This document shows positions 25,878 through 46,217 of a DNA stretch of 64,000 nucleotides, one piece after another. The stretch lies in the NCBI RefSeq assembly GCF_019968905.1, contig NZ_CP079946.1, positions 2,232,001-2,296,000 on the forward strand, given 5' to 3'. This stretch comes from Corallococcus sp. EGB. GTDB lineage: Bacteria; Myxococcota; Myxococcia; Myxococcales; Myxococcaceae. Within the stretch, counting starts at the first letter, position 1. Every line of letters starts with the position of its first letter. The notes under the pieces are model-generated. The model was not told the DNA's origin, did not search any database, and saw only the letters and a program-made list of their open reading frames with translations. The position numbers and the translations under genes were made by a program.

Positions 25878-28800
25878 CTAGCCAGAGGGAGGCGGCTGTG
25901 GCGCCGTCTTGGCTCGAGCGTCTGGGAACAACCTCCGCACGCTGGAGACGACCTCTTGGTGGAAGGAGATGACGAGCCCGAGCAGGGCAGGGATTGCTCC
26001 CACTAAGGCGAGTAGTGCCTTCATGTACTCGGGGAGTTCGGCCATCCAATCCTTTCTGATGACGAGCGTCGCCACGCCCTTCTGCGCCACCTGAAGCTCC
26101 AACTCGAAGTGGTTTCGCCCAACATCCCCGAATGTCACCGGCAATTCCAGACGCCGCCAATCGACGGGGATGGATTCCGGCCGGCCCGGCCCCTGGAGAA
26201 TCATCAAGGTGTCGGCCTTACCCAGCCGGGCAAAGGTGCCCATGCTGGCCACGAGGTGCACAGGTTCGGTGTCGTCCGGTGTGGCGCACTCCCGGGAGAG
26301 GAACAGGGGCTCCTCCTGCCCGGGGATGGCTCGGCTCTGGTAGAAAATCTGGCCCTGACACTTCGAACTCTTCCACTTCACCTCACCCGGTTGTGATGAG
26401 AGGTAGTAGCCGCCAAAGAGCACAAGGCTCACGGTGGCCCCGAGCGAGATGATGCCAATCCTCCGGTTCAATCGTCTTTGGGCTTCCGGCGCGGTGGGCT
26501 CGAAGTTGTGGCGGACCCACATTGCGAGCAATGGGATGGTGAGCGCCAAGCGGCCATCCCGATAGTCGATGAGCCCCATGTGTCGCAGCCGGGCGAACGC
26601 TGCGTCGCACTGCTCGGGGGAATCCGAGAAGGAGTGTCGGAGCGCCGCGGGAGTCCTGGGGCGTTGGCTCGCCACCAGCTCCATCAGCTTGCGCTCAATC
26701 GGCCCGAGCCATGGCAGGAGGCTGCTGCGAAAGTCATCGCCCGTGTGGATAAGCTGTTGCGCCGCACGTTGTACGTCCGCGTACCCCACATGTACGGACT
26801 GGAGCATGTTCGCGGAGTCAGCCTGTCGCCGCGACCGCACGGCCGTGCCACACAGGCTACGGACGACGGAGACATTGCCGGCGGAGAGCCCCACGATGCG
26901 GGCGAGTGCCCAGGCGCTGAAGGTGACGTTGATCTGCCGTCCTAGCTCTGCACAGAGTTTGCGGATGTCGCCCGCTTCCAGCGGCCCTACACGCACCACT
27001 CGAGCCTGGTTGGCCAGGGGGTTGGCCCAACCGTCAATCACCGTGCTGGACAGCAGACTGCCAGCCAGACTCGTCACGACCACCGCGCAGTTCCCGGTGC
27101 GGGTTTGCTCGGCGAGCGACGCCCAGAACACTCGTGCATCCCTCCGTTCCTGTTCCGAGATCCCCGCCTCCGTGAAGGCTGCGATGCAGAAGTCTGCGTC
27201 ATCGAGGACCAGGACGAGCCGCTCCGCCTTGCGTTGTGCCCGCCTGACGGCGTGGAGGAAGGCTTGTGAGAGCCGCTGATGGAGGTCCGCACCGGCCGCG
27301 GGTTCCTCCCGGGCCCTATTGGTCAATGCCTTCATCACGGCACCGGCGACGGTTTCGACCTTCCTGTCCACCAACTCGATGCAGCGCACCCGGACGAACC
27401 GGGTGTTGCTTAGTCCGTCGCGCACCATCTCCAGGAGCGATGTTTTCCCGGCGCCAGGCAGCCCCGTGAGAAGCACGAAGGGGTTGCCATGCTGTAGCAG
27501 GCGAGTCAGCTCATTCACCTGGGCGCTCATGCCGAACATCCGCGTGCGATCGACCGTGCGCTCGGTCCGGGAGAAGACGTCCGGCGGCGTGTGGAAGTCC
27601 GTCAAGCGGTCCAGCAGGAAGTCGTAGGGCGTGCTGTCCCGGAGCGCATCGACCAGTTCCCCCACGTGGACTGGCAGGACGATGGCTCCGAAGTTCTTCT
27701 GCAAATCGAAGATCCGGCTTCTAACCCCGCCACCCAGTTCGGTCGCGTCCACGATGGCGATGACGACCTTGCGCGCGACGGACTGGAGTACTGTGAGATG
27801 ATGCTCGAGCGGGTCCACATAGCCGCTGAAGGCCTGCGTGGCGAGGCGGTGATCCTCTCCCGTCGCGAAGACCGCGAAGAAGGGCTGGGCGTCGCTCCGC
27901 GGGAAGTGTGCCCCTTCGAGCTTGATGACGTTGGGGGTCATCCACTGGAAGCCCGTGAACAACTTGTCGAAGAACAAGGCGATGGGCACCGCGTGTCCCG
28001 CTAGCTTCGGCGGAAGGCGCTCCGTCAGTCCGACCCATGGGCCCATCGCTGCCTCAATGGGCTGGGACTTCAGGAACGATTCCGTCCGCGGCGAGACGCT
28101 TTTCGTGTCCTTCGGTGCGAGCGCGACGAGGTTTGCCGAGTGGCCCTGTGGCTGGATCGATGGGGACGAAGCAGACGACAGCAGCGAGAGGGATTTCTCC
28201 AGGGGAAGGAACGCGTCACACAACTCGCGGGCGCTCTGGAATCGCTCATCGGGCTCGAATGCGAGCGCGCGTTGAAAGAACTCGAAGAGTTCCCGCGGCA
28301 GGGTAACGCCGATGAACCCCGCAGCCTGCGAGGCATCGTAAAGCTGCTTCAGGTAGTCCGAGGTGTTGTCCCCGAACGGTCTCCACCCCAGGCTCGCCTC
28401 GAAGAGGACGACGGCCAGCGACCAGATGTCGCTGCGGCGGTCTACTACCTCACCTCGAATCCGTTCGGGGGCCATGTACAGCGGCGTCCCGATGATCTCC
28501 TGCGTGATGGGAGCGGATTCCAAGGTGGCCTCATCATCACCCTGGACGAGTTTCGCCACCCCAAAGTCGAGCACCTTCACGGTCTCGATGGTGCCATTGG
28601 CCGCGAAGTAGATGTTCCCTGGCTTGATATCGCGGTGGATGACGCCTGTGTTGTGAAGTCGCTCAAGCGCGGACGCGATTCCCCTGGCCAGAGTGACGAC
28701 CTCTGAGGCCGCCAGTCTTCGCGTACGGGAGAGTCGGGAGGCGAGGTCTTCGCCCACGAGCAATTCCATTACGAGATAGGGGATACCCTCCATCCAGCCG

Positions 28801-29075
28801 AAGTCGAGGAATCGGACGATGTGGGGATGGCTGATGTCGGCGAGGAGTTGGGCCTCGCGCTGGAACCGCAGGGAGTGCTTGTCGCGCTCCATGAACGGGC
28901 GCGTCTGCATGAACTTGATGGCCACGCCGCGCTTGTTGGCTTCATCGTAGGCGGCCCAGATCTCGCCCATGCCCCCACTGCCAAGGATATTGAGGAGTCG
29001 GTATTGGTCGGCGATGGTCAGCCCTTGGCGAAGCGATAGCATGTTGCGTGTCCCCAATTGCGAGACCCGCATCAT
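25878..29075 (-). CDS. Ser/Thr protein kinase fused to a STAND-like ATPase, with C-terminal membrane segments
   Basis: About 1065 aa. The kinase domain has the Gly loop LGSGGMGEIW, VAIKF, HRDIKPGNIYF, LDFGVAKL and GTPLYMAPERI. A middle domain of about 150 aa (PIALFFDKLFTGFQWM to GELVDALRDS) is unrecognised. It is followed by an AAA/STAND P-loop domain: Walker A LLTGLPGAGKTSLLEM and Walker B LVLVLDDADF. A winged-helix-like part (ALRHSFSDSPEQCDAAFARL) precedes two hydrophobic segments (IGIISLGATVSLVLFGGYYL; ALLALVGAIPALLGLVIS). ATG 29075 has AAGGA 6 nt upstream and overlaps the TGA of a broken sigma-factor gene (ATGA). It is probably a membrane-tethered signalling switch. A conflict or immune role is possible but unproven. 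Confidence 0.85.
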   Translation of the reverse strand: MMRVSQLGTRNMLSLRQGLTIADQYRLLNILGSGGMGEIWAAYDEANKRGVAIKFMQTRPFMERDKHSLRFQREAQLLADISHPHIVRFLDFGWMEGIPYLVMELLVGEDLASRLSRTRRLAASEVVTLARGIASALERLHNTGVIHRDIKPGNIYFAANGTIETVKVLDFGVAKLVQGDDEATLESAPITQEIIGTPLYMAPERIRGEVVDRRSDIWSLAVVLFEASLGWRPFGDNTSDYLKQLYDASQAAGFIGVTLPRELFEFFQRALAFEPDERFQSARELCDAFLPLEKSLSLLSSASSPSIQPQGHSANLVALAPKDTKSVSPRTESFLKSQPIEAAMGPWVGLTERLPPKLAGHAVPIALFFDKLFTGFQWMTPNVIKLEGAHFPRSDAQPFFAVFATGEDHRLATQAFSGYVDPLEHHLTVLQSVARKVVIAIVDATELGGGVRSRIFDLQKNFGAIVLPVHVGELVDALRDSTPYDFLLDRLTDFHTPPDVFSRTERTVDRTRMFGMSAQVNELTRLLQHGNPFVLLTGLPGAGKTSLLEMVRDGLSNTRFVRVRCIELVDRKVETVAGAVMKALTNRAREEPAAGADLHQRLSQAFLHAVRRAQRKAERLVLVLDDADFCIAAFTEAGISEQERRDARVFWASLAEQTRTGNCAVVVTSLAGSLLSSTVIDGWANPLANQARVVRVGPLEAGDIRKLCAELGRQINVTFSAWALARIVGLSAGNVSVVRSLCGTAVRSRRQADSANMLQSVHVGYADVQRAAQQLIHTGDDFRSSLLPWLGPIERKLMELVASQRPRTPAALRHSFSDSPEQCDAAFARLRHMGLIDYRDGRLALTIPLLAMWVRHNFEPTAPEAQRRLNRRIGIISLGATVSLVLFGGYYLSSQPGEVKWKSSKCQGQIFYQSRAIPGQEEPLFLSRECATPDDTEPVHLVASMGTFARLGKADTLMILQGPGRPESIPVDWRRLELPVTFGDVGRNHFELELQVAQKGVATLVIRKDWMAELPEYMKALLALVGAIPALLGLVISFHQEVVSSVRRLFPDARAKTAPQPPPSG

Positions 29076-29640
29076 GGCATATCCTTGCTCTCCTGGCGAA
29101 GCAGCCCATCCTCCACTGACACGCATGGCGCCAGCACCGTTCGCAACCTCTGACGGGCGCGGACAGGGCGCGTGCCAACGGTGGGTCGCGCGATTTGGAG
29201 TTGATAGGGGATCTCCTCGTGGGGCAGTCCCTCCAACTCATGCAGTTCGTACGCGCGGCGGTGGAATCCCCCCTTTCAGCCCACCGAGCGCCCTGTGGAA
29301 CTGGGCGCGGGTGATGGACGCCCAGGTCGGCTCGAGGCCGGGCTCGGCAGCCATGCAGGACTTCTCGACCTGGGACTCAACCGGCTCCTCGCGCCGTGCC
29401 TGGACCCGCAGGCGTGATAGCGGTCCACGAACAGATTCTTGAGGATGGAAGGGAGCCAGACGCGGCAGTGCTCCTCGGTAGGGTGGGGCCACGGCCGTGC
29501 TGCGCAGGGCACGCTCGAAGGAGTCCTGGACCAGGTCCGCCTCGGCTCGCGGTTAAACGCTGCCGGGCTCTCTTCGGTAGGTCAAAGAGGGCTTCGGCCT
29601 GGAGGCTACGTGCCCGGGAGTCCAGTTGACCCTGTTGCAC
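29072..29640 (-). pseudogene. ECF-type RNA polymerase sigma factor, frame-broken
   Basis: Reading leftward, pieces of one sigma-70 ECF protein appear in different frames: region 2 (EADLVQDSFERALRSTA, near 29500-29550), region 2.4-like EEHCRVWLPSILKNLFVDRY (29400-29475), the linker PTWASITRAQFHRALGGL (29280-29340), and region 4 AYELHELEGLPHEEIPYQLQ then IARPTVGTRPVRARQRLRT (29130-29262). Region 4 ends ESKDMP and its TGA overlaps the kinase start. Three or more frame changes are needed, so either this copy is dead or the assembly has indels. The start is not identifiable. Confidence 0.6.
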
Positions 29641-31019: not shown

Positions 31020-31634
31020 TCACCGTGCCTCCCGTTCGAGGGGGAAGCCGTGCTTGGCGGCGCCGCCCTCAACGACGCGAGCGTCCTCCGGCCGGAGGAC
31101 GACGAAGACGAGCTTTGCGAGGGCGTCGCGCTGCTCCGGCGACCTGGCCCGAAGGTGCTCGTGGACGGCGCCCATCATGGCGTCCACCGAAGCAACCGGC
31201 CCCAGGCCACCGGCGCCGGCTCCGAGGAGCGGCGTCGCCAGGATGAACTGCCCCGAGAGGTCGTTCTCGGTGGCGAGCGATGCGGCCGCATCGAGGAATG
31301 CGCGCACGCAGGAACCAATGCGGCGCGGGCCCGAGAGGACTCCGGTCTCCGGGTCTCGCTTCCGATAGTCGACTGCCGGCACATGCAGCACCCAGCGGAA
31401 GGCGGTGCTGGTGCCCGCTGACGTAACCAGGCAGTCGTCCGGCTCGAGCTCCGCGTCGAAGTCCTCCTCGAGCCGCTCGCGAAGCTCCTGCTGGAAGGCG
31501 GCACCGCCGCAGGCCTCGCGGAGCGCGCCCGAGACGCCGATTCCGAGGGCGACGCTCGGGTTGGAGGCGTTGACGACGGCATGCGCACCGATGGCTGGGT
31601 CGACGAGCGAGCCGGTGTAGACGCCGAGCTTCAT
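31020..31634 (-). CDS. Macro-domain protein
   Basis: A 204-aa protein with a macro-domain fold signature: HAVVNASNPSVALGIGVSGA matches the conserved VNAAN...GGGVAGAI loop that binds ADP-ribose. A second phosphate-loop-like region, ATPLLGAGAGGLGPVASVDA, corresponds to the catalytic GxGxxG loop. Macro domains read or remove ADP-ribose from proteins or nucleic acids. This is the last gene of a leftward five-gene set that shares its control region with the helicase/PLD/CARF operon. The start at 31634 lacks a strong ribosome site. It may counteract or sense ADP-ribosylation in a conflict setting (inference). Confidence 0.75.
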   Translation of the reverse strand: MKLGVYTGSLVDPAIGAHAVVNASNPSVALGIGVSGALREACGGAAFQQELRERLEEDFDAELEPDDCLVTSAGTSTAFRWVLHVPAVDYRKRDPETGVLSGPRRIGSCVRAFLDAAASLATENDLSGQFILATPLLGAGAGGLGPVASVDAMMGAVHEHLRARSPEQRDALAKLVFVVLRPEDARVVEGGAAKHGFPLEREAR

Positions 31635-32742: not shown

Positions 32743-32792
32743 GGCGGGTGACTCCTCTCGGGGGACTGCTCCATCGCAGCCGACGAGCCACT

Positions 32793-32809
32793 TCGCATGC
32801 TCCGTGCCG
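32793..32809 (-). promoter_or_regulatory. Sigma-54-type promoter for the leftward arm
   Basis: On the minus strand the sequence reads CGGCACGGAGCATGCGA, against consensus TGGCACG-N4-TTGC. The invariant GG (32808-32807) and GC (32796-32795) are exactly 10 bp apart. The predicted start near 32783 would leave a 40-nt leader before ATG 32742. Confidence 0.55.
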
Positions 32810-33011
32810 AGCGCCTGGTGTGCTGCAACCTGTTGATATTGCTGGCGGAACGCGAACGACTGCGGCTGCGATGCGCCGGTTTGTGCTGGTGCATCAGCAA
32901 TTCTCCGCCTGGTTGCTCAATCGGCATGTTTTTGCCCACATATCAGCAGTAAAATGCCGACGTGACCTTCGCGAGCGCGCCAAGTGGCGGAATTTCGGCG
33001 ATTTCGCTGGC

Positions 33012-33027
33012 TGGCACCGTCCTTGAG
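33012..33027 (+). promoter_or_regulatory. Sigma-54-type promoter for the rightward operon
   Basis: TGGCACCGTCCTTGAG keeps the -24 block TGGCAC and the correct 10-bp gap to the -12 block, where GA replaces the ideal GC. The predicted start near 33038 is just ahead of the GGAGG at 33040. The 200 bp between the two promoters contains TGGCGGAA twice as direct repeats (about 32843 and 32984), candidate activator sites. Confidence 0.5.
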
Positions 33028-33050
33028 ATGGGCGGCTGCGGAGGTTCGCC

Positions 33051-33377
33051 ATGCTCGCCTACGAAACCGATCGTCGACCGACGCAGCACTACAAGGCCCG
33101 CGCTGCCGAACGCGCACTTCGCTCAGACGTCGAGGAGTTCCTGATGACGTGGGGGACCGAGATACGCGCCGCCGGCGCGACGCACATCACGCTGGTCCGG
33201 CGCGACCTGCCCGTCGACCTGCAGGACAGCGAGGAAGCGGTTCGAGCCGAAGGCTGGATCGTCGTCGCTGGCGACGACGGCTCCCTGGTCACCTGCTATC
33301 GGAGAAACGACGCGTGGCGGTTCGTTCGCCGCAAGAGCCATATGCGCCCGCGTCGGCGTTCCAGGAGGGCCGCCTGA
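33051..33377 (+). CDS. 108-aa protein, first gene of the helicase/PLD/CARF operon
   Basis: ATG 33051 has GGAGG 6 nt upstream. The protein is basic, with a predicted alpha/beta core: TQHYKARAAERALRSDVEEF, THITLVRRDLP, WIVVAGDDGSLVTCYRRND and AWRFVRRK. The last block (a beta-strand followed by TCYRRND and RFVRR) resembles the C-terminus of small RelE/BrnT-like toxins, but similarity is too weak to assign. The C-terminal tail is Arg-rich. The next gene starts 1 nt after the stop, so they are coupled. It could be a small nucleic-acid-binding adaptor or toxin. Confidence 0.65.
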   Translation: MLAYETDRRPTQHYKARAAERALRSDVEEFLMTWGTEIRAAGATHITLVRRDLPVDLQDSEEAVRAEGWIVVAGDDGSLVTCYRRNDAWRFVRRKSHMRPRRRSRRAA

Positions 33378-33378
33378 C

Positions 33379-36180
33379 ATGCTCGTCCAACGCATCGCCC
33401 TGCTCGCCGAGCGCCTCGGCATCCCGTTGCCTCGCATCGCAGGCCAGACGCGCCTCGGGCTGTCCGGGACCATCCGGGTCACCCGACCGGTGCCGCTGAT
33501 CTTCACGCAACGCGCGGATGAGCAGATCGCGGAGGTCGACCCTGGCCTCGCGCGCGCCGGTCTCATCGACGCCATGAGCGCCTCCCACGTCTGGACGTGG
33601 CTCGAGGTTCGCGGTGCCGAGGGGCGATGGCGTTGGCCGGAGCTGGGTGACGAGCCCGACGTGCTCGCTCGCTGCAGCGAGGGCGACCTCCCCTCGCAGG
33701 GCTTCTCGGTCCTCCTCTCGACGGCTCGCTGGTCGCTGCGCTGCGTACCGGCCCGCGACGGGAGCGGCCTCCTCGTTCTGGGCGTGCTCAAGCCTCGCCG
33801 TGCACCGTGCGCCAGGCTGTTGGTCGCGTCCTTCGGCGACGGCGCCGACGCCAGTTTCGACACGAAGGGCATGTGCACATTGGTCGCGTCCCAGACGCGG
33901 GTGCGCGTACGCGTCGATCAGCGAGAGGTCGAGCGTCAGGCGAACGACGACCGCGACTTCATCACCGGCGTGCGTCGATACCTCGAGGCGCTCCGAAACC
34001 ATGCCGTCTCCTCGACGCCGCGTGCGAAGTACAAGCTCGTCGAACGCGCTCCGGTTCGACTCCGCACGCTCGACGCTGATGCGTGGCCCCGAGCGTTCAC
34101 GCGGCCCGGGACGCTGCTTCAGATCCTCACGGGACCCGACCAGGTTCGCACGCTGCCGATCCTCGACGTCTCCGACGACGGCGACGTCCTCACGATGGAC
34201 GGTGACGACGAGCGCGGCGAGCTGCTCGAGCAGGGAGAGCTGAAGGTTCGGCCCGGTGATGACTCCCTCCGGCGCATGCGCGAGGCACTCGACATGATCG
34301 CGATGGGTACCGACGAGGCGCATGGGCGTCTTCTCGCTGCTCTGACCCACCCCGAGTCGCTGCAAGACCTGCCTCGCTCCGAGAACGCGCCCGCCGACGA
34401 ACAGACTGCTCGTCAGCAGCAGGCGAAGGACCTGGCTCTGAACACGCCGGAGATCGCGCTCATCCACGGCCCGCCCGGCACGGGGAAGACGACCGTCATC
34501 TGCGGCATCGTCGAGGAACTCGTGAAGCGTGGCCAGCGCGTTCTCCTTGTCGCGCCGACGCACGTCGCGCTCGACAACGTTCTCGAGCGCGTTGGAGATC
34601 GATCCGGCGTCACGGCGATTCGCCTTGGCTCACCGGACAACGTCGAGGAGCAGGCCCATCGGTTCCTCCTCCAGCACCGGAGCCGAGATCTGACCCGCCA
34701 TCTCGCGAAGGACCTCCGTGCGGCCACCACTGAGGCGCCGTCGGATGATCCTGTCGTGGCCGTTCAACGTGAGTGGGCTGGGCGCATCGCCAATGACGAG
34801 GAGGCCGGCACGCTGCTCCTCCTCAACGCGAACCTCGTGTGCGCGACGCCCATCGGCATCGCGATGGCGCGCGAGTTCCGTGAGGTCGAGGTCGTCTTCG
34901 ACGTGATGATTCTGGATGAGGCCAGCAAGGCGACCATCACCGACTTCCTCGTGCCCGCCGCGCGCGCGCGGAAGTGGATCTTGGTCGGGGACCATCGGCA
35001 GCTCGCGCCGTACGTCGACCTTGGCGAGTTGGAGGCGGTCGTCTCGGAGCGGGTAAAGCGCGCCGGTGTCGAGGAGCCTGATGCGAGTTGGGTGCGCGAA
35101 CTCAGCACGCGGCTCCGGCAGCACTTCGACAACCGCATGCACCCAGAACCGAAGCGGGTCGCGGACGCATGGCGTGACCTCGTCGACGAGCTGACCCACC
35201 GGTTCGAGATCGACGACCCGACGTTCGACGAGCTCGTGGCGCTAGGAGCCGACCCCGACAAGTGGCGCGAGGCCTCTCGCGCGGCATCCCGCTCCAGCGG
35301 CGATGCGGGGGCGACGAAACGAGCGATGGTACTTCGTCTCGGCGCCGAGCTCCTCGAACTGCAGGCGCTCGCGCTCCCGAGCGTGTTCGAGCACCTCACG
35401 CGCCTCCCTGAGAGCCGGGCCGTGCGCTTGAACTTCCAGCACCGAATGGCGCCGGCCCTGGCATCGTTCTCGTCGGAGCTGGTGTACGGCGGCGACTATC
35501 CTTCGGCGCCGGAGACCGCGAAGCTCGGTCTCGACATCCCGAGCCTCGAAGCTCCAGCCATCTGGATCGACACTGCGTATGCGCCCGCCGCGCGCCGCTA
35601 CGAGCACCCTCGAGACCGAGACTGGTCGGGCGGCGACTACATCAACCCCCTCGAGGTCGACGTCGCAGAGGAGCTTGTGGAGGCCTGCGCGACGTGGGCC
35701 GTCCAGAGCTGGCGCGGCGATCCTCGCGAGCGCGGTCGCGGCGCCGACGCACCGTTCGAGATCGGCGTTACGTCCTTCTATCTGAAGCAGGCGCTCCAAC
35801 TGCGCGATGCCATCTTTCGTAGGCTCGCGAGCGGCACCGACCCGTGGCGCCGGCGATGGAAGAGCCCTGCTGCGAACGGCGCCCCCATCGACATCCACGT
35901 GAGCATCGTCGACAGGTTCCAGGGGCGAGAGAAGGATCTCATCATCCTCTGCACGACGCGCAGCAACCCGAAGGGCCGTCGGGGGCACGTTGACAATCTC
36001 AACCGCCTGAACGTCGCGGTCACTCGCGCTCGGCACAAGCGCATCGTCATCGGCGACTCGACGACGCTCGCAGGGCAAGGCGACGGTCGCCGCAGGCGGC
36101 CCGGGGACCTGCTGGTCCGGCTGTACGAGACCAGCGAGCAAAAGAAGAAGTGGGGACGCGCGCTGGGAGGTCGATCGTGA
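33379..36180 (+). CDS. Upf1-like SF1 helicase/nuclease-associated ATPase
   Basis: A 933-aa protein. An N-terminal domain of about 340 aa has no recognised match. SF1 motifs follow: Walker A IHGPPGTGKTTVICGI (G364-T371), Ia VLLVAPTHVALDNV, motif II VMILDEASKA (D513-S516), motif III ILVGDHRQLAPY, motif IV VRLNFQHRMAPALASF, motif V SIVDRFQGREKDLIIL (D845 on) and motif VI LNVAVTRARHKRIVI (N878 on). DEAS and the VDRFQG block place it with the Upf1/IGHMBP2 (COG1112) helicases that translocate on RNA or ssDNA. Pairing with a PLD-family gene recalls the Mokosh and DISARM defence systems. A large insertion sits between motifs III and IV. Confidence 0.88.
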   Translation: MLVQRIALLAERLGIPLPRIAGQTRLGLSGTIRVTRPVPLIFTQRADEQIAEVDPGLARAGLIDAMSASHVWTWLEVRGAEGRWRWPELGDEPDVLARCSEGDLPSQGFSVLLSTARWSLRCVPARDGSGLLVLGVLKPRRAPCARLLVASFGDGADASFDTKGMCTLVASQTRVRVRVDQREVERQANDDRDFITGVRRYLEALRNHAVSSTPRAKYKLVERAPVRLRTLDADAWPRAFTRPGTLLQILTGPDQVRTLPILDVSDDGDVLTMDGDDERGELLEQGELKVRPGDDSLRRMREALDMIAMGTDEAHGRLLAALTHPESLQDLPRSENAPADEQTARQQQAKDLALNTPEIALIHGPPGTGKTTVICGIVEELVKRGQRVLLVAPTHVALDNVLERVGDRSGVTAIRLGSPDNVEEQAHRFLLQHRSRDLTRHLAKDLRAATTEAPSDDPVVAVQREWAGRIANDEEAGTLLLLNANLVCATPIGIAMAREFREVEVVFDVMILDEASKATITDFLVPAARARKWILVGDHRQLAPYVDLGELEAVVSERVKRAGVEEPDASWVRELSTRLRQHFDNRMHPEPKRVADAWRDLVDELTHRFEIDDPTFDELVALGADPDKWREASRAASRSSGDAGATKRAMVLRLGAELLELQALALPSVFEHLTRLPESRAVRLNFQHRMAPALASFSSELVYGGDYPSAPETAKLGLDIPSLEAPAIWIDTAYAPAARRYEHPRDRDWSGGDYINPLEVDVAEELVEACATWAVQSWRGDPRERGRGADAPFEIGVTSFYLKQALQLRDAIFRRLASGTDPWRRRWKSPAANGAPIDIHVSIVDRFQGREKDLIILCTTRSNPKGRRGHVDNLNRLNVAVTRARHKRIVIGDSTTLAGQGDGRRRRPGDLLVRLYETSEQKKKWGRALGGRS

Positions 36181-37604
36181 AGGCGCCCGAGCTGAAGACC
36201 ATCGCCGCCTCGCTCGGGGACGCAGGTGCGCCGGGACTGCCGACCGTCGTGCTCACGCGTGAGGTGCCGCTCTTCGAGGTCGAGTTCGCGGCGCTTGAGT
36301 TCGCTGAGGAAGCGAAGCTTCCGTCGAGCAACTGGGCTGCGCTCGCGTTGGCCCGCGCCCTCGGCGAGCTGTCGCCGGCTGATGTAGATGCGTACCTCGG
36401 GCTCGGCGAGGCTGTGTCCGAGGGGCTCGTGCGCCGCCTGCTCGACGAAGGGCTGATCGAAGAACGCGCCGACGAGCACGTACAGGCGGCGAAGCCCGCG
36501 GAGGACTCCGGCATCGGTGGCTTCTTCCGTCGCCTCTTCGGCGGTTCGACGGCGCATCCCGTCGAAGCCGTCGCGCCGCCAAGCCGCGTGCAAACGGCTG
36601 CGCGCAAGCTACGCGAGTCTCGCGCATCCAGTACCCCGGTGTGCCGACTCAGCACCGGTGGCGCGCAGGCGCTTGAGCGAGGCGCAGTTGCACAGCGTCG
36701 CGTGCGGCCCGCACGCCTGCTCTTCCTGGCCGAGCCGCTCCTCTTCCTGGGCGTGGTCGATGAGAAGCGCCAGCGACACACGCAGCATCGGCGGCCGAAC
36801 GCGCTCGAGCCCGAGCGCGTTCCCGGCGCGTTCCAGGTGCTCGACGCGACGTTCGCGCTGCCCCCGAGCGAGCGGCTCGGAGCCTGCGGCATCGAGGCGA
36901 ACATACGCGGGTTCTCGGGTCAGTTCGTCGGCATCGTGCCCGGCGCTCAGTGGGAGGTCCGGCAGATGGAGCGCCGGAGCAACAAGGGGCGCGAGGCGCA
37001 GATGGCGCTGTTGGTCCTTGCTGCGTTCCCCTCGTCCGACGCGGACGGGCTCACTTGGCGTGCGTACTTGCGCCAGCAGGATCAAACGCAGGACTGCCCG
37101 CACATCGACGCCGCCTGCTTCCTTCACGAGGACCTGCGCTCGCTCACGTCGCTCCTGAGCGTCATCGAGGGCGATGGAGCGCTTCCGACTCAAGCAGGGC
37201 TTCGTGGCGACGGCGCCTTCGATCTCCGCTGCGATGAGACTCTCTTGCCGAGCCTGCTCGGCGAAGCGGACCGCCCCGCCGACACGTTCCTTCCGGCGCT
37301 GGCCCCAGGCTGGTGGGTCGGCGTTCGCGCGCACGCATCGCCCACCGACATCCATGCGGGGCGCGCAGCCTTCTACGACTTCCTTCGTCGACGCGACGCC
37401 AACCTCCGACGCGACTTCGATGGCACCTGCGCGGAGGTCGCGACGAACCTGATCTCGTACTGGGGCGAGAACCCCGGACTTCCCTCGGCCGACGAGGCCG
37501 CGATCAACCTGTGGGTGAGAGCCGAGCTCCGCGCTGCTCTCTGCATGCGTCGACGCCATCGCGACCTTGTTGCCCCGTATGAGCCCATGGAGCCTGCCCG
37601 ATGA
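36177..37604 (+). CDS. Unknown 475-aa protein between the helicase and PLD genes
   Basis: GTG 36177 overlaps the helicase stop (GTGA), indicating tight coupling. The first roughly 90 residues look like a winged-helix or tandem helical region (WAALALARALGELSPADVDA, EGLVRRLLDEGLIEERADEH). A linker containing GIGGFFRRLFGG follows, then a conserved-looking C-terminal domain: RLLFLAEPLLFLGVVDEKRQ, IRGFSGQFVGIVPGAQWEV and FYDFLRRRDANLRRDFDGTC. No catalytic motif is recognised. By position it is likely an adaptor or substrate-recognition partner of the helicase and nuclease. Confidence 0.75.
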   Translation: MKAPELKTIAASLGDAGAPGLPTVVLTREVPLFEVEFAALEFAEEAKLPSSNWAALALARALGELSPADVDAYLGLGEAVSEGLVRRLLDEGLIEERADEHVQAAKPAEDSGIGGFFRRLFGGSTAHPVEAVAPPSRVQTAARKLRESRASSTPVCRLSTGGAQALERGAVAQRRVRPARLLFLAEPLLFLGVVDEKRQRHTQHRRPNALEPERVPGAFQVLDATFALPPSERLGACGIEANIRGFSGQFVGIVPGAQWEVRQMERRSNKGREAQMALLVLAAFPSSDADGLTWRAYLRQQDQTQDCPHIDAACFLHEDLRSLTSLLSVIEGDGALPTQAGLRGDGAFDLRCDETLLPSLLGEADRPADTFLPALAPGWWVGVRAHASPTDIHAGRAAFYDFLRRRDANLRRDFDGTCAEVATNLISYWGENPGLPSADEAAINLWVRAELRAALCMRRRHRDLVAPYEPMEPAR

Positions 37605-39205
37605 ACGACGAGATGACGGCCCAGCGGGAGACGCCCGCGAGCGCGAGCGACGCGACGAGGGTTTACCTCGGCGAGCAGCGTGTGAAGGGCGTGGTCTTCG
37701 TTCCTGCGCCCGCTGCGCAACCGGCTCCGCATCGCCTCCACGACACGCGGCGTCGAGACGTCCTCCACGTTTCGACCGACGACCTGACCCGAACGGCGCA
37801 CATCCGGCGAGCGCTGGTGGAGCAGATCGCCGAGGCGAAGCAGAAGGTCCTGTTCTGCAGCTTCCTCTTTGTCGACGAGGAGATCGTGCGCGCGCTTTGC
37901 GAGGCTGCGGAGCGCCTTCACGGCGGTGTCTACGTTCTCACCGCGCTCGGGAAGCACCTGCGCGCAGAGGTGCTCGAGCCGAACTCCGACGTCGATGCCA
38001 ACACAGCCAAACTCCAAGACCGCGCGAAGCGTCACGAGGACCATCTGCAGCGCCTCGCACACGCGGGCGTGTGGCTGCGGAGCGCCGAGGACTGCCATGC
38101 GAAGTTCTGCGTGGTCGACGATGCATGCGCGATCGTCACCTCTGCCAACGCGACGCAGGAGGCCTACGAGTCGAACCCCGAGGACGGACTTATAGTCCTC
38201 GATTCACAGGCCGCTCGGGAACTCGGGCGCCTCTTCGCGCACGTCTGGCAGTACCTCTCGACGCTCGAATCAACGCCCGGCGCTAGGCTCGACGTTCGCT
38301 CGCTCACCAGCGCGCGCGCACTCGAGTGGCGGGCGCTGGCAGGCGCCGACGCACTACGACCGGTAACGACCCTCCGCAGCCAGGAGGCGTCGCTTCGCGA
38401 TGCGGCCATCGAGGTCATCGATCGCGCCAAGGATCATCTCGCCATCGCGACGTACAGCTTCATGGGAGTGGAGGAGCATCCAATTGGGGCTGCTCTGGCG
38501 CGAGCACTGGCGAGGAATGTTCGGCTCGACCTGCTCGTCCAGCCTCGGAACCACATCGATGCGCAGAGAGCGTCCCTGGCGTGGCTGGTCGGGCTCGCAC
38601 CGGAGCGGGTGCGGCTCTACGGGCATCGCCGCACGCACACCAAATCGATCGTCGCGGACGGCCAGGCTGCGCTCTTGTGGACGGGAAATCTCGAGGCCCG
38701 GCACGGTTGGGACAACGGCATCGAGGTCGGCGTACTCGTCGAGGACGCCGGCGTCGCGTCGGCGGTGGTGGGCTGGACGGGAGACGTCATGCGGCGGGCG
38801 ACGCACTTCGCCTTGAACACGCCCACGGTGCGCGAGCTCGTGGACGCAGGCCAGCCGCCTGCCCTGGCCGGCGAGTGGACCGTGAAGCTGCCCGCCGGTG
38901 CGCAGAAAGCCGCTGCCGCGCAGGTGCTCTCCCGGAACCCTGTCGAACTGCTCGAAGTGCAGGGCGCCCTCGTACTGAGGTGCGGAGACGAGATGCTCTT
39001 CGACATCCGCGTCGACGAGGCGAGCCGACGGATCGACGTTGTGCGGACCCGGCGCGTCGAGGGGCTCATGGGGAGCCGGAGCAAGGGATGGCTCGCGACC
39101 ACCGTGCTTCACGTGGTCGCTGCGCCGCCACCACCGCCCTCGCAAGGCCGACCGCCACAGCAACAACCGCAACAACGTAGAAGATCGAAAGGACGGCGCC
39201 GATGA
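37601..39205 (+). CDS. Phospholipase D-family protein with two HKD motifs (putative nuclease)
   Basis: A 534-aa protein whose ATG overlaps the previous stop (ATGA). The N-terminal HKD half has VLFCSFLFVDEEIVRALCEA and H166-A-K168...D173 in CHAKFCVVDDACAIVTSANA. The second has LAIATYSFMGVEEHP, H346-T-K348...D353 in THTKSIVADGQAALLWTGN and the acidic partner in WDNGIEVGVL. Both HxK(x4)D motifs are intact, so one active site can form within a single chain. In bacterial conflict operons, such PLD proteins paired with helicases are usually nucleases. A phospholipase role cannot be excluded. The C-terminus is a P/Q-rich then Arg/Lys-rich tail, suited to nucleic-acid contact. Confidence 0.85.
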   Translation: MNDEMTAQRETPASASDATRVYLGEQRVKGVVFVPAPAAQPAPHRLHDTRRRDVLHVSTDDLTRTAHIRRALVEQIAEAKQKVLFCSFLFVDEEIVRALCEAAERLHGGVYVLTALGKHLRAEVLEPNSDVDANTAKLQDRAKRHEDHLQRLAHAGVWLRSAEDCHAKFCVVDDACAIVTSANATQEAYESNPEDGLIVLDSQAARELGRLFAHVWQYLSTLESTPGARLDVRSLTSARALEWRALAGADALRPVTTLRSQEASLRDAAIEVIDRAKDHLAIATYSFMGVEEHPIGAALARALARNVRLDLLVQPRNHIDAQRASLAWLVGLAPERVRLYGHRRTHTKSIVADGQAALLWTGNLEARHGWDNGIEVGVLVEDAGVASAVVGWTGDVMRRATHFALNTPTVRELVDAGQPPALAGEWTVKLPAGAQKAAAAQVLSRNPVELLEVQGALVLRCGDEMLFDIRVDEASRRIDVVRTRRVEGLMGSRSKGWLATTVLHVVAAPPPPPSQGRPPQQQPQQRRRSKGRRR

Positions 39206-40995
39206 CGACGATCGGTGTGTCGTGGGTGTCGTTCAACAACGACCCCTACGAGCGAGAGAAGGACGGCAGGTACCGCGAGCGGGACGGCGAGAAGACCCGG
39301 GGCCCGACGCTCGAGTTCCTCTTCAACGCCGCATCGCCTGTCGCCGGCCGCGTCAAGAAGCACTACCTGCTCGTGCGTCGTCCTCGGAGTCCCGAGCCAG
39401 GCGAACGGCGTGTGGATCCTCGGGAGTCCGACGTCGTCGAGGCGTTGGTCACCGAGCTCGAGCAGCAGAAGGGGGCACCGGAGGTGAGCATCGTGTGGTG
39501 GGACACGGACGCTCCACCCACCGACCATCGAGAGCTGTTCGTGTTCACCGCAAGGGCCCTCGCCGACATCCGGCGAGAGAACCCGCGAGCGGACCTGGTC
39601 GTGAACCTGAGCCCTGGCACGCCGGCTGCGCAGACGGTGATGCTCCTCGCCCTGCAGGCGCGGCTCGCTGGTGACAACGTGCGGGCCTTCCAAGGAACCC
39701 CTCGTGACAAGCGTCGCGACCCAAACGATGTAGTCCGCGAGGTCCCATGGAACCTGCTCGCCGAACTGGCGGCGACGCCCACGGAGATCAACGACGCGAG
39801 CACGCGACCCGCTGCGTGGAGTCTCGAGCACGCGCGTTCACCTCGCCTCCGCGAGGTAGCTGCGCTCGTGAGCCAGTACGGAGGCGTCCCCTTCCCGGTG
39901 CTCATCATCGGCGCGCGAGGGACCGGCAAGACCGAGGTCGCCGAGCGGCTTCGCAGGGGGTTCCGCGAGTCGCTCGTGCAGTCTCCATCCGAGTCCGAGT
40001 GGCACTTCAAGCTCAACTGCGCGGAGTTCCGCGGTGACGCGAACATGCTGAGGAGCGCGCTGTTCGGGCACGTGAAGGGCGTCCACAGTCAGGCGTTCAA
40101 GGATGAAGCTGGCCTCTTCGAGAAGGCGGCCGATGACTGTGTGTTTCTCGACGAGATCCACTGGATGGACCCGCAGGCGCAGGGACTGCTCCTCGTCGCG
40201 CTCCAGCGCAACGGGAGTTTCCGTCGACTCGGCGGCGAAGAGCCGATCCCGGCGAAGTTCCGGTTGGTCGCCGCGACAAACCAACCGCGCAACGTCCTGC
40301 GCGAAAAGCTGACCCCCGACTTCCTCGATCGCATCTCGGACCTGGTGATCGAGTTGCCGGAGCTTCGCGACTGCCGCGAGGACCTCGGGGACATCTGGAA
40401 GTCCGTGGTGCGGCGCGCGTGTGAGGAACTTGTGCAGCGCGACCCAGCGCGCGCGATCGGCCGAGGGACTGGCGCAGCGCGCGTCGACGATCTCGTCGCG
40501 GAGTTCCAGCCCCACCACGCTCGCATCGAGCGGGCCATCAGCGCCATGCGGCTCGCAGGCAACTTCCGCGATCTCGAGAAGCTTGCTCGGCGTCTGCTCG
40601 TCGGCGGGCTCGCGCGAGGCCGCTTCCTCTCGTTGAAGGAGGAACTCGTGCGCACTGAGCTCGAGCGCCTCCGCAAGGACGAGCGCGCGGACGCGGAGCA
40701 GGGGGCCGGCCCTGCGACCACGCTCGTCGACGAACTGCCCACGGTCGCCCGCTGCGAGGACTATCTCCGCGAGGTGCGCGACGCCGGAACAGTTCTCCCT
40801 GGACCGGCGGCCGTCGATGAGTGGGAGCGACGGCTGCTTGTGGCGGCTCACGCGGTCGGCGGCAGCGGCGCCAAGGCAGCCGCGCTGCTTGGCATGAACG
40901 CCCGCACCTACAACGCGAAGATGGAGAAGTGGGCCGTTGCTTCGACGCACGTGAACGGCGGGAAGCGCCGTCGCTCGGCCTCGGACTTCGAATAG
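39202..40995 (+). CDS. CARF-like sensor fused to a sigma-54-activator-type AAA+ and Fis HTH (RtcR-like)
   Basis: A 597-aa protein whose ATG overlaps the PLD stop. Residues 1 to about 195 are a Rossmann-like CARF domain: TIGVSWVSFNNDPYER, EFLFNAASPV, VSIVWWDTD, and the signature strand-loop DLVVNLSPGTPAAQTVMLLA (residues 132-151). The AAA+ domain has Walker A GARGTGKT (237-244), NCAEFRGDANMLRSALFGHV, Walker B VFLDEIHW (D317-E318) and the R-containing RLVAATNQPRNV. The GAFTGA loop of sigma-54 activators is GVHSQA (293-298) here. The C-terminus has a Fis-type HTH (GGSGAKAAALLGMNARTYNA). RtcR has the same order. It likely senses a nucleotide or RNA-end ligand and activates the two sigma-54-type promoters at 32.8-33.0 kb. 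The stop codon lies in a hairpin. Confidence 0.85.
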   Translation: MTTIGVSWVSFNNDPYEREKDGRYRERDGEKTRGPTLEFLFNAASPVAGRVKKHYLLVRRPRSPEPGERRVDPRESDVVEALVTELEQQKGAPEVSIVWWDTDAPPTDHRELFVFTARALADIRRENPRADLVVNLSPGTPAAQTVMLLALQARLAGDNVRAFQGTPRDKRRDPNDVVREVPWNLLAELAATPTEINDASTRPAAWSLEHARSPRLREVAALVSQYGGVPFPVLIIGARGTGKTEVAERLRRGFRESLVQSPSESEWHFKLNCAEFRGDANMLRSALFGHVKGVHSQAFKDEAGLFEKAADDCVFLDEIHWMDPQAQGLLLVALQRNGSFRRLGGEEPIPAKFRLVAATNQPRNVLREKLTPDFLDRISDLVIELPELRDCREDLGDIWKSVVRRACEELVQRDPARAIGRGTGAARVDDLVAEFQPHHARIERAISAMRLAGNFRDLEKLARRLLVGGLARGRFLSLKEELVRTELERLRKDERADAEQGAGPATTLVDELPTVARCEDYLREVRDAGTVLPGPAAVDEWERRLLVAAHAVGGSGAKAAALLGMNARTYNAKMEKWAVASTHVNGGKRRRSASDFE

Positions 40996-42487: not shown

Positions 42488-43858
42488 ATGACATCCGTGT
42501 GGGGAATGGTGCTTCTGCTGGTGACACAAGCCCCAGGAGTGGACGGGCCGGTCGAAGGGGCGGAGCCCCTGGCCACTCCGGCCGAAGCCGAGCTGGGAGT
42601 GGAAACACCGCCCGCAGCAACGCGCGAGGGAAGAGGGTGGGAGTACCTCATCCGCCTGGAGACGAGCACGCTGGTGCTGCAGGCACGAGGAGGCGCGGGA
42701 GAGCAGGTGGGCTATGCGCAGCTGAGCCCGATGCTGCTGGTGGACGGAGGCGAGGAGTTTGGAGTCAACGTGGGCGCTCCCGTGAGGTTGCGGCTGTGGG
42801 GCGGCGAGGCGAGCGCAGGGTGGGTGCGCGAGGAGGACTGGGACAGTCTGTCGGACTGGGGGCAGCTGGTGCACGCCCTGAAGCTGGGCTCGGACAAGTC
42901 CCCGGTGGGGCTGTGGGTGGGAGCGCTGGACAGCTACAGCCTTGCTTCAGGGCACCTGGTGCGGCGCTACTCCAACCGGGCCAACCCGGACTACCACCCG
43001 GCGGGAGCCTCCCTCACGGGTGCCGTGGGCCCCTTGTATGTGGAGGCCTTCGCCTCGGACGTACTGGGCGCGCGCCTCATGGGGGCGCAAGCCGAGTTGG
43101 ATGTGGCGCACGTCTTCACCGGCCCGCCGAGGCAGCGGGGGCGCTACACCCTGGCACTGTCGGCGGTGCATGAGTGGGGCAGGGCCGGGGGTAAGTCACC
43201 GCCGGTGACGCTGGCGCACCTGGACGGGACAGCGGTGGTGGTGGTGCGCCGGGGCTTTGAGGCGCACCTGCTGGCCGGCTGGGGCGGGCGGCCGGGAGTG
43301 GGCGGCGCGTGGGGCCTGGTGGCGGGAGTGGGAGCGGACGCGGTGACGAGTACGCTGGACACGAAGTTGCGGCTGGAGGTGCGCCGGCAGCACGGCGGCT
43401 TCCGACAAGGCTTCTTCGGCCCAGACTACGAGCTGGCACGCTTCCGGGCCGCGGGCCCCGAGGGCGTGCCTCTGGCCGAGGCGTCCTTTCCGGACAGCTT
43501 CTCTGTCTACGGCGAGGCGGTGGTTGGCTGGGATGCCGTGCACTACGGCGGGCTGCAACGGCACTTGCAGCTGTCGCTGGGCGCGGAGGCCTTCACCTGG
43601 GGCCGCTTGGACGTGGACGGGCGCGTGGCGGTGCAGGTGTGGGGCCGCAACGTGGAGGTGGCCGTGAAGGGGCTGGCGGTGGGCCTGGGACAGCCTGGGG
43701 TGCGCTACCTTGCAGCGGCGGAGATGCGGTGGCGCTTTCTCGGGGGGCGCCTGTACGCGCTGGGCACGGGAGGGACGCAGCTGTTTCCAGAGGAGGTAGG
43801 GACACTCCGGCCGGGGGCCTACGCCTCGGTGGGGCTGGGGGTAGACAATGCGCGCTGA
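42488..43858 (+). CDS. Exported outer-membrane beta-barrel-like protein (SitB position)
   Basis: A 456-aa protein with an N-terminal signal peptide (MTSVWGMVLLLVTQAPGVDG). From residue 50 onward it shows alternating hydrophobic strands with Gly and aromatic residues typical of transmembrane beta-strands: EYLIRLETSTLVLQA, PVRLRLWGGEASAGW, RYTLALSAVHEWGRA, FEAHLLAGWGG, HLQLSLGAEAFTWGRLDVDG, ending in YASVGLGVDNAR. No lipobox. It overlaps the next gene by 11 bp. By position it corresponds to SitB, the accessory gene of SitBAI loci. I assign by arrangement, not by sequence match. Confidence 0.65.
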   Translation: MTSVWGMVLLLVTQAPGVDGPVEGAEPLATPAEAELGVETPPAATREGRGWEYLIRLETSTLVLQARGGAGEQVGYAQLSPMLLVDGGEEFGVNVGAPVRLRLWGGEASAGWVREEDWDSLSDWGQLVHALKLGSDKSPVGLWVGALDSYSLASGHLVRRYSNRANPDYHPAGASLTGAVGPLYVEAFASDVLGARLMGAQAELDVAHVFTGPPRQRGRYTLALSAVHEWGRAGGKSPPVTLAHLDGTAVVVVRRGFEAHLLAGWGGRPGVGGAWGLVAGVGADAVTSTLDTKLRLEVRRQHGGFRQGFFGPDYELARFRAAGPEGVPLAEASFPDSFSVYGEAVVGWDAVHYGGLQRHLQLSLGAEAFTWGRLDVDGRVAVQVWGRNVEVAVKGLAVGLGQPGVRYLAAAEMRWRFLGGRLYALGTGGTQLFPEEVGTLRPGAYASVGLGVDNAR

Positions 43859-46217
43859 GCCTCTGGTGTACAGGTGGGCGGTGCTGCTGCTGGTGGGGGT
43901 GGCCGTGCTCACCAGCGGCTGCGTCACGCTGGTGTCGCCGCAAGTGGGGAGCGGTGCCCAAGGCCCGCGCGCCATGTCGGCCTTGCGAGCGACAGCTGCC
44001 GGGAGTGCCCAACTCGAGACGCCTTCGGCTTTCGCCTCCACGGAGCCGGGAGAGCAGGAGCGGAGCGCTTCCAGCGCGCCGGACGAGGAGGAGAGGCTGC
44101 ACCGGCGCCGAGGTGCCCGTGGGCTGGGCCCTGAGGTGGCCAAGGGGAGCGCGGATGAGGCGAGCCCGAGCGAGGTGGCCAGAGGGGGGACAGCCCCACA
44201 AGGCCCGCCCACATGCGGGGGGCAGGCCGTGCCGGAGGGCTGGCCGGACTACTCCACCTGGTGGGATGGGGAACTGCTCGAGCCCTTCCTCATGTGCACC
44301 TCGCCCGCGGAATTCCTCACCTTGCAGGACAGGGTGGACATGCCCCGGCTGGTGGATGCGTTGGAGGACTGGTCCGCCGTGAGGCTCGGCGCGCTGGGGC
44401 CCATGGAGGCTCCGGCCGCGCAGGTGCTCCAGCGCAAGCGCTTCTCATTCCTCGTCTCCGCCACCCAGAGGTACGGGGCCTACGCCCAGGTGCTCACCCT
44501 CTTCCTGTTCGACACGGCCTTTGATGACGAGGTGCGCGAGCTGTTGGTGCTGCTGTCCAAGGACAAGCAACTGGAACAGACGCTGGGGCACATGGAGGCG
44601 GTGCGCGAGGCGTTGGAGAGGCGGGGCTTCCAGCTCTCGGACTACCCGGACCGGGAGGAGCAACTCAGCGACGTGGTGCGGGGCCTGGGCCGCGCTGTCG
44701 ACGACGTGGGCGCCACGATTCCCGGTGCGGATGGAGCCAACGGTACCAGAGTGTTCGGCGCGCGAGCCGACCTGCCACCGCCCTACCAGGAGGCCTTCGA
44801 CGAGACGTTCCAGGCTCTCACCCGAGAGCACTTCTCTCCGGGCCACGTGGCGCTGGGCACCTTTGACTCCATGACGTTCGGCGTGCCGCTGGGCTTCTAC
44901 TACCTGGCGGCGGGGACGGGGCATGGAGTGTCTTCGCTGTACCACGGCCGCTACGAGCAGGCCTCGAGGGAGCTGGCGCCCGCGGCGCTGATGGTAGGCC
45001 TGTACGCGGGCGGCAAGGGGGTGCGCGCTCTCTCCGAGGGCCGAGGTGTACCGGGTGTGGGCGTGCCACGGCTCCGAGGGCTGATGGGGGTAGAGGTGCG
45101 GTTGCAAGCCCTCAAGGCAGTGGTGCGCGAGTTGGAGTTGCTGCTGGGGGTGGATGGGCTGAGGCAGCTCGTCAGCTACATTCGGGCCAGCCGGGAGGCG
45201 GGCCGCTTCGTGGCCGTGGGGGGAGTGGACGCGGCCCTTGCCCTGTACGAGGCCCGGGGAAACGTGGCCAAGGCGAGGCCGATGCTGTCCCAGGCCAGGC
45301 CCGACAGAGCGCGTGCCCCTACTGCGAGCGGTGGGACGGCGAAGAGCTCCAACAAAGCGGCCGCCGTGGCGGACGAAGCCACACGTCCTGCCTCCAACAA
45401 GGCCCGCCGGGCAGGTGCCGACAAGGCTTCCGGGGGCATGGCCTCCCTGGTGGATGAGCAGTCGGGCCTCTCCCACGAGGTGGTGGAAGCCAAGCTGGCG
45501 GCAGCGGAACTGGAGTCCACGGGCCTGCGCCTGCCTGCGGACCCGGCGGTGCTGGAGAAGCACCGTCCCACCAGCGACGCTCCGCAACCCGGAGCCGAAG
45601 GCAATCCACGCTGGGGTGAGTACGTCAGCTACTTCGAGAACCGCCTCGCGGAAATAGAGAAGGGCCAGACGAAAAAGGGACCGCTGCCCTGGAAGGCGTA
45701 TGAGCAACTGCGGGCGTGGTTCGCTCGGGGGCTGGCCTTCGAGCGCATCATGGTGGAGTTGCTGGAGGCAGACGCGGCCCTGCCTCGGGCTCAGCGCCGC
45801 TTTCTCGGGGACTTCATCAAGCCCCGTATCGAGAAGTACGTGGGCGTGTCGAAGCCGGGTACCGGCCTGCGCTTCGCGGATGTGCTCATCATCGAAGAGG
45901 GCGAGCTTGGTGGACGGCCACCGCGCGTCGAGACGCTCAGCTTCAAGAGCCGCGACCTCTCGGGGCTGAAGCCCGGTGCACTGGCGGCCCAGATGATTGC
46001 GGACGCGACGGAGGCCCTGTCGAAATACGGCGAGACGCTGGACATCCGCCGTCCCTCCCTCCAGCCCCTCTTAGGCGAGGGCAGCAAGGTGCCGGTTTCA
46101 AGGGTCCGACTCGTCTATGAGGGCGGTAAGCTCAAGCCTACGGACGTAGTCGACTTGAAGGCAGCAGTGGACGCAACCAAGGAGGCAGTTCCGGGAGTGG
46201 AGGTGTTGTTCCAATGA
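43848..46217 (+). CDS. Large lipoprotein with C-terminal putative nuclease domain (SitA-like toxin)
   Basis: A 789-aa protein with a lipoprotein signal (WAVLLLVGVAVLTSGC, Cys25). A low-complexity spacer follows, then a helical delivery region (TLQDRVDMPRLVDALEDWSA; FVSATQ-type and LFLFDTAFDDEVRELLVLLS) with hydrophobic FYYLAAGTGHGVSSLYHG. A basic A/K/S/R linker (residues ~480-540) precedes a C-terminal domain of about 200 aa. That domain has KAYEQLRAWFARGLAFERIM and RFADVLIIEEGELGG, D678, followed by VETLSFKSRDLSGLK, E695 and K700. D...E...K resembles restriction-fold nuclease toxins. Lipid anchoring, N-terminal constant region and variable C-terminal domain match SitA toxins transferred by outer-membrane exchange. 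Confidence 0.65.
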   Translation: MRAEPLVYRWAVLLLVGVAVLTSGCVTLVSPQVGSGAQGPRAMSALRATAAGSAQLETPSAFASTEPGEQERSASSAPDEEERLHRRRGARGLGPEVAKGSADEASPSEVARGGTAPQGPPTCGGQAVPEGWPDYSTWWDGELLEPFLMCTSPAEFLTLQDRVDMPRLVDALEDWSAVRLGALGPMEAPAAQVLQRKRFSFLVSATQRYGAYAQVLTLFLFDTAFDDEVRELLVLLSKDKQLEQTLGHMEAVREALERRGFQLSDYPDREEQLSDVVRGLGRAVDDVGATIPGADGANGTRVFGARADLPPPYQEAFDETFQALTREHFSPGHVALGTFDSMTFGVPLGFYYLAAGTGHGVSSLYHGRYEQASRELAPAALMVGLYAGGKGVRALSEGRGVPGVGVPRLRGLMGVEVRLQALKAVVRELELLLGVDGLRQLVSYIRASREAGRFVAVGGVDAALALYEARGNVAKARPMLSQARPDRARAPTASGGTAKSSNKAAAVADEATRPASNKARRAGADKASGGMASLVDEQSGLSHEVVEAKLAAAELESTGLRLPADPAVLEKHRPTSDAPQPGAEGNPRWGEYVSYFENRLAEIEKGQTKKGPLPWKAYEQLRAWFARGLAFERIMVELLEADAALPRAQRRFLGDFIKPRIEKYVGVSKPGTGLRFADVLIIEEGELGGRPPRVETLSFKSRDLSGLKPGALAAQMIADATEALSKYGETLDIRRPSLQPLLGEGSKVPVSRVRLVYEGGKLKPTDVVDLKAAVDATKEAVPGVEVLFQ

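Follow-up and report, generated by a model that had tools for sequence, protein, structure and literature searches.

What does an operon that joins a UPF1-like helicase, a putative nuclease and a CARF-domain regulator do in a myxobacterium, and is it a system of its own? The operon is carried by Corallococcus sp. EGB, whose genome is a single contig of 9.43 Mb (NZ_CP079946.1). It lies in the 64,000-nt stretch of that contig that was analysed as a whole, here called the window, and all coordinates are positions in the window. There are five genes, all on the plus strand. P0001 is a small protein (33051..33377, 108 aa). HEL is a UPF1-like superfamily 1 helicase (33379..36180, 933 aa). Protein X follows (36177..37604, 475 aa, or 484 aa if an upstream GTG is used), then a PLD-family protein with two HKD motifs, a putative nuclease effector (37601..39205, 534 aa). 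The last gene encodes P0005, a CARF-AAA+-HTH regulator of the RtcR_PspF1 type (39202..40995, 597 aa). The open reading frame (ORF) coordinates give one 1-nt gap and then three 4-nt overlaps, just as the original prediction had described. We argue from the sequence evidence that this operon is, on balance, an inducible anti-phage (conflict) system. More tentatively, and with doubt slightly ahead, we propose that a portable sensor cassette with a cargo slot serves varied helicase-nuclease modules, and that one lineage of it drives a sigma54-like promoter with GAHSQA as a non-canonical contact loop.

The domain calls made for the helicase, the PLD protein and the regulator agree with Pfam and PADLOC matches. 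HEL matches AAA_11 (1.8e-35) and AAA_12 (2.7e-33) in Pfam. Human UPF1 is the best PDB match to the helicase-family profile (5e-56), and SMUBP-2 and SEN1 are also among the best solved relatives. The PLD protein has two PLDc_2 stretches (2.9e-31, Pfam) and both of its HKD motifs are intact. P0005 matches the PADLOC model RtcR_PspF1--CARF_AAA_HTH (PDLC01994) at 515 bits (4.1e-155), with residues 3-576 covering positions 4-467 of the 468 in the model. In Pfam it has a strong Sigma54_activat match (1.3e-30) and a weak match to the Csm6-type CARF domain (0.005). It is not an RtcR equivalog, scoring 138 bits against a cut-off of 650.

The order of these genes recurs. All five are present in the same order in Minicystis rosea (L004), which belongs to another myxobacterial family, with identities to the window of 72% for the small protein, 87% for HEL, 80% for X, 77% for the PLD protein and 83% for RtcR. 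The last four genes are found in more diverged loci. Two of these, L044 and L047, come from myxobacteria among the 195 Myxococcota genomes searched and have HEL-X'-PLD-RtcR with local identities of ~30-43% to the window genes, where X' is assigned from its position and a weak similarity. In a search of plasmids, HEL-X-PLD-RtcR turned up in this order in Vibrio rumoiensis, Vibrio aerogenes (L059) and Pontibrevibacter nitratireducens (L058). On plasmids both X and this RtcR subfamily are found only in the HEL-X-PLD-RtcR context (4/4 records each). Since the order recurs in Minicystis, and that of the last four genes in diverged loci, the arrangement is not the product of chance. Among the 195 Myxococcota genomes searched, the window X itself was found in this one alone. 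In the 15 other genomes of the genus that were compared X has no match, HEL has one distant match (G076) and little of the flank at 26-33 kb can be aligned, so the locus is accessory. No relatives of X or of the regulator were found in viral contigs.

Two observations on the plasmid loci should be recorded. A Klebsiella conjugative plasmid (L060, 3571-10239) carries a remnant of the Vibrio type in which X is in two pieces with IS21-type genes between them; PLD and RtcR are still open and transposase genes adjoin. No relative of this Klebsiella PLD-RtcR pair was found in E. coli genomes at the DNA level. On the V. aerogenes plasmid (L059, 9418-16092) the operon is followed within a few kb by cas2, a cas1 of unusual length (3012 bp) and a RAMP gene.

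Two loci that lack the middle of the operon bear on how it was put together. In L042 (genome G096) and L043 (genome G088) the small gene and RtcR share 81-87% identity with their window counterparts and are direct neighbours, without HEL-X-PLD. The DNA alignment with L042 covers window positions 33041-33368 and then starts again from 39186, 16 bp before the RtcR start. Between the aligned blocks L042 has 17 bp, where the window has 5.8 kb of HEL-X-PLD cargo. Since the alignment stops at 33368 and resumes at 39186, HEL-X-PLD is exactly the segment that was inserted (or lost). We call this segment (33369..39185, plus strand) the cargo slot; it is missing from the homologous small-RtcR junction of both loci. 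The 308-bp intergenic region upstream (32743..33050) appears to be regulatory and can be aligned in all four small-RtcR loci, while the divergent gene to its left varies. In the window that gene is a 127-aa hydrophobic ORF and in Minicystis a remnant of it. In L042 and L043 the divergent side is a CoCoNuT-like operon with TerY, a kinase, a UPF1-like helicase, a CnuE-like protein and a coiled-coil McrB-type protein. Genomes G064 and G083 have a CnuH-CnuE-CnuB series that runs in the same direction as TerY and as genes for RtcR-like and DUF4258-like proteins. It must be noted that we assigned the names CnuH, CnuE and CnuB from gene order, domain hits, motifs and the published description, not from a curated model.

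The trees tell the same story. The regulator tree unites the window RtcR and the CoCoNuT-linked RtcR of L042 and L043 at 100%. In the helicase tree, which must be read with caution given its long branches, the window HEL joins the other HEL-X helicases (88/91), apart from the CnuH pair. The trees thus agree that regulator and cargo probably have different histories, although the long branches call for caution here too. A single assembly ancestral to all HEL-X-PLD-RtcR operons was considered, and the helicase tree gave it no support. The behaviour of promoter, small gene and RtcR is that of a regulatory cassette, which would have been combined with different cargos, and different machines appear to share this regulator.

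What is the small protein in this cassette? P0001 has no Pfam family match of its own, and its score for DUF4258 (PF14076) is under the curated threshold. Beyond the clade it is closest to the RtcR-adjacent genes of L045 and L046, of which that of L045 passes the DUF4258 cut-off (28.6 vs 25). A hidden Markov model (HMM) built from the four close small proteins finds the L046 ORF at 1.6e-5 and that of L045 at 0.0064 among 3951 ORFs. DUF4258/BrnT-like proteins are RelE-like. P0001 is probably a diverged DUF4258 (BrnT/RelE-like) protein. Its structure model is weak, with a predicted local distance difference test score (pLDDT) of 54, and the fold assignment gains nothing from it. BrnT-like genes sit directly upstream of RtcR-linked CoCoNuTs (PMC11090510).

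Protein X is harder to place. It has weak matches to MarR_2 (0.08, Pfam) and MkoB (0.007, PADLOC) at residues ~55-102. The X proteins of the other loci form one family, with an extra C-terminal part in L072, and a UPF1-like helicase adjoins the members examined. With hhalign, residues 19-193 of the window X align with the N-terminal part of seven of these proteins over 118 columns (P 0.0039), while the HMMER E-value is only 0.23. The hhalign score is 30.4, whereas 60 column shuffles reached 23.2 at best and the other controls at most 17.7. X is a probable distant member of this helicase-partner family, with a wHTH-like N-terminal part. We infer that X is a diverged wHTH-type adaptor, of the sort placed after UPF1-like helicases in the CoCoNuT paper (PMC11090510). 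A profile comparison of X with the N-terminus of MkoB was not significant, and no kinship was found between X and the CnuE-like protein of L042 and L043. An AlphaFold model of X, for which the input was the window and Minicystis only, had a pLDDT of 31.6 and was unusable. As an observation apart from the operon, L071, L072 and L074 have operons of an AAA+ ATPase (IetA-like in L074), a UPF1-like helicase of 1108-1124 aa, an X protein (longer in L072) and a coiled-coil protein of 655-747 aa, without RtcR. These are possibly another undescribed helicase system.

The cassette also has a candidate promoter. A sigma54-like element, CTGGCACCGTCCTTGAG, lies at 33011..33027 on the plus strand, 40 bp before the first start codon. 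The best-conserved upstream 20-mer in the four small-RtcR loci is GCTGGCACcgTCCTTGAGAT, a sigma54-like -24/-12 element. In a 341-column alignment of the window, L004, L042 and L043, 18 of its 20 positions are invariant, against an upstream average of 40%. The window element reads TGGCAC-N5-TTGAG at -40, with GA and not GC at -12, and by score alone its p is ~0.14 under our scoring matrix, which is our own approximation of the published consensus. Strong sites of this kind are found upstream of HEL in L044, L057 and L059 (p <= 0.01). The RtcR-linked CoCoNuT-like loci L045 and L046 have them upstream of the DUF4258-like gene, scoring 19.7 and 18.9 of 22.1. The host genome has one match to the sigma54 (RpoN) gene.

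How new is the operon? The original prediction knew of no described system that adds a CARF regulator of this kind as its last gene, and that claim was too strong. Makarova et al. 2014 (PMC4012209) proposed RtcR-like CARF-AAA+-HTH proteins as sigma54 activators of restriction systems, with RNA 2',3'-cyclic phosphate ends or phage-specific nucleotides as the signals. The CoCoNuT paper (eLife 2024, PMC11090510) describes RtcR homologues with UPF1-like helicases, wHTH-nuclease partners (HEPN or PLD) and BrnT-like toxins, and PADLOC-DB models the regulator family. The rest of the conflict-system claim holds up better: the operon is conserved and mobile, its gene order recurs, and it is best explained as inducible. 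A stand-alone HEL-X-PLD-RtcR operon and a cargo slot were undescribed in the literature where searched, a coverage that left out the 2020 CARF classification and the intended Mokosh reference. The closest known systems are the RtcR-associated Type II and III-A CoCoNuTs. They share with the operon an RtcR-like regulator, a BrnT/DUF4258-like small protein, a UPF1-like helicase and a nuclease partner, and a closely related small-RtcR pair adjoins the CoCoNuT-like operons of L042 and L043. However, a scan of the five genes here gave no CnuB or CnuC (McrB/McrC), TerY-P or HEPN. Instead the operon has a separate double-HKD PLD effector, RtcR is its last gene, and the GAFTGA motif is degenerate. DISARM has in common a DrmC-like PLD protein, but ours scores 103 bits, under the NF038319 cut-off of 133, and DrmA and DrmB are not in the operon.

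One can imagine that the operon has no identity of its own, and is a Mokosh-like or CoCoNuT CnuH-CnuE-like system that acquired an RtcR-type regulator and works as published. HEL does match the MkoA model at 320 bits, and Mokosh type I (MkoA/MkoB) also combines a COG1112-type helicase with a PLD protein. UPF1-like helicases usually precede a wHTH-effector gene, which has two PLD domains in Type III-C, and CoCoNuTs are accompanied by RtcR and BrnT-like genes (PMC11090510). CnuH-CnuE of Type III-C shares with the operon the UPF1-like helicase and two PLD domains, and perhaps a wHTH-type partner, for which the matches of X are weak. We consider this scenario unlikely all the same. The MkoA match is to the helicase half only (model 531-1083 of 1112), and HEL lacks the kinase-like N-terminal half of MkoA. 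The PLD protein scores just 34 bits to MkoB (PADLOC) and lacks the long N-terminal part that is fused to PLD there. MkoA is a separate clade in the helicase tree, and no CARF regulator was seen beside the MkoB loci examined. Type III-C has wHTH and PLD in one protein, whereas X and PLD are two genes here; it is McrBC-type, but the five operon genes include no McrB or McrC homologue, and it is not among the types reported as frequently RtcR-linked (PMC11090510). HEL-X-PLD-RtcR also recurs as a unit on plasmids. Far less probable, and disfavoured, is a housekeeping operon for RNA repair or RNA decay under rtcBA-like regulation. It would account for an RtcR-type regulator next to a UPF1-like helicase, and the operon shares with RtcR-RtcBA repair the regulator architecture and possibly the type of ligand. 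But the operon has no ligase or cyclase: RtcA and RtcB are encoded elsewhere in the host genome, at 3.13 Mb, beside another RtcR-like gene. The patchy occurrence of X and the plasmid-borne relatives also disagree with a housekeeping role. A toxin-regulator stress module, made up in the main of the small gene and RtcR and with the helicase genes as passengers, is improbable as well. The pair without HEL-X-PLD in L042 and L043 and its DUF4258-like/BrnT-like kinship fit that scenario, but defence-type cargo adjoins the pair in every locus seen, and the diverged operons on plasmids have RtcR but lack the small gene.

Some points weigh against our own reading of the operon and its control. The similarity of the window X to the other X proteins is weak, and within the HEL-X group the window HEL is separate from the other HEL-X-PLD-RtcR helicases (again on long branches). 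Because of these two points, the diverged and window forms of HEL-X-PLD-RtcR may have been assembled independently. The sigma54-contact motif GAFTGA is GVHSQA in P0005 and GAHSQA in its three clade relatives, although it is retained in L044, L046, L047 and the Vibrio regulators. PspF tolerates no residue but Tyr in place of the Phe of GAFTGA if activation is to be kept (PMC2941729), which makes sigma54 contact by P0005 doubtful. Candidate dyads (inverted repeats) for regulator binding are individually not significant, and TCGGCA-N6-TGCCGA at -108 in Minicystis was rejected as a regulator site for that reason. The regulator might bypass sigma54, then, and work either at a sigma70 promoter or as a repressor or ATPase switch gated by CARF, in the manner of Rhodobacter/Caulobacter NtrC or VspR. 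The whole clade (4/4 members) has the altered loop, bacterial enhancer-binding proteins without GAFTGA that act at sigma70 promoters are known (PMC10274813), and the RtcR-like protein of Pontibrevibacter (L058, 8812-10233) has also lost GAFTGA (AATNDK), with no clear sigma54 site seen upstream of its operon. We hold this alternative to be possible but on the doubtful side. No upstream block of the window clade is better conserved than the sigma54-like element, whose place is fixed; the Walker A and B motifs of P0005 are intact; and in NorR a Gln at the second Gly of GAFTGA is active (PMC2941729). In any case it concerns the regulatory step only and is compatible with a defence role. The "sigma-54-type activator" of the original prediction should be qualified, as a conserved sigma54-like element here goes with a replaced GAFTGA motif.

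If the operon is an inducible anti-phage system, it could work as follows. The regulator, present at a low level, would sense an infection-linked ligand through its CARF domain. Candidates are RNA cleaved so that it ends in a 2',3'-cyclic phosphate, the kind of signal sensed by RtcR, and a nucleotide second messenger. The first seems likelier, since tRNA halves bearing 2',3'-cyclic phosphate bind to the CARF domain of RtcR (PMC7790460) and E. coli RtcR gave no response to oligoadenylates (PMC9650030). The RtcA encoded by the host is noted as a maker of such ends. The regulator would then form a ring upstream of the promoter and turn on its own operon. HEL and X would load onto and travel along invader-derived RNA or single-stranded DNA, and recruit the PLD protein to cut the invader nucleic acid. 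The small protein may act as a toxin-like RNase or as a partner in feedback. Either clearance or cell dormancy would fit as the outcome.

With its four to five genes, the system is compact enough for joint tests of a CARF regulator, a UPF1-like helicase and a PLD protein, free of the very large islands that often house RtcR-linked defence. The shared cassette makes two things testable, the ligand of the RtcR-like CARF proteins of defence loci and the re-use of one sensor for different effectors. How much change the contact tolerates can be tested cleanly on the altered GAFTGA loop, which accompanies a conserved sigma54-like promoter.

The neighbourhood of the operon holds other genes. An ISL3-type transposase (23844-25496, minus strand) lies within an element at 23793-25598 that has inverted ends of ~44 bp and many partial copies in congeners. 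A Ser/Thr kinase of 1082 aa with a fused AAA NTPase (25878-29126, minus strand) matches PD-T4-6 kinase models strongly; it may serve in defence or be one of the ordinary kinases of myxobacteria. Among the genome-specific genes left of the operon is a Macro-domain protein (31020-31634, minus strand; Pfam Macro 1.5e-10). An association of the operon with the divergent macro-domain and kinase genes was rejected, as they have no match beside the Minicystis operon. To the right, 42488-47554 encodes proteins of 456, 789 and 446 aa without Pfam hits, which have multi-copy relatives in 16/16 genomes of the genus. This set may resemble the SitBAI exchange toxins of Myxococcus.

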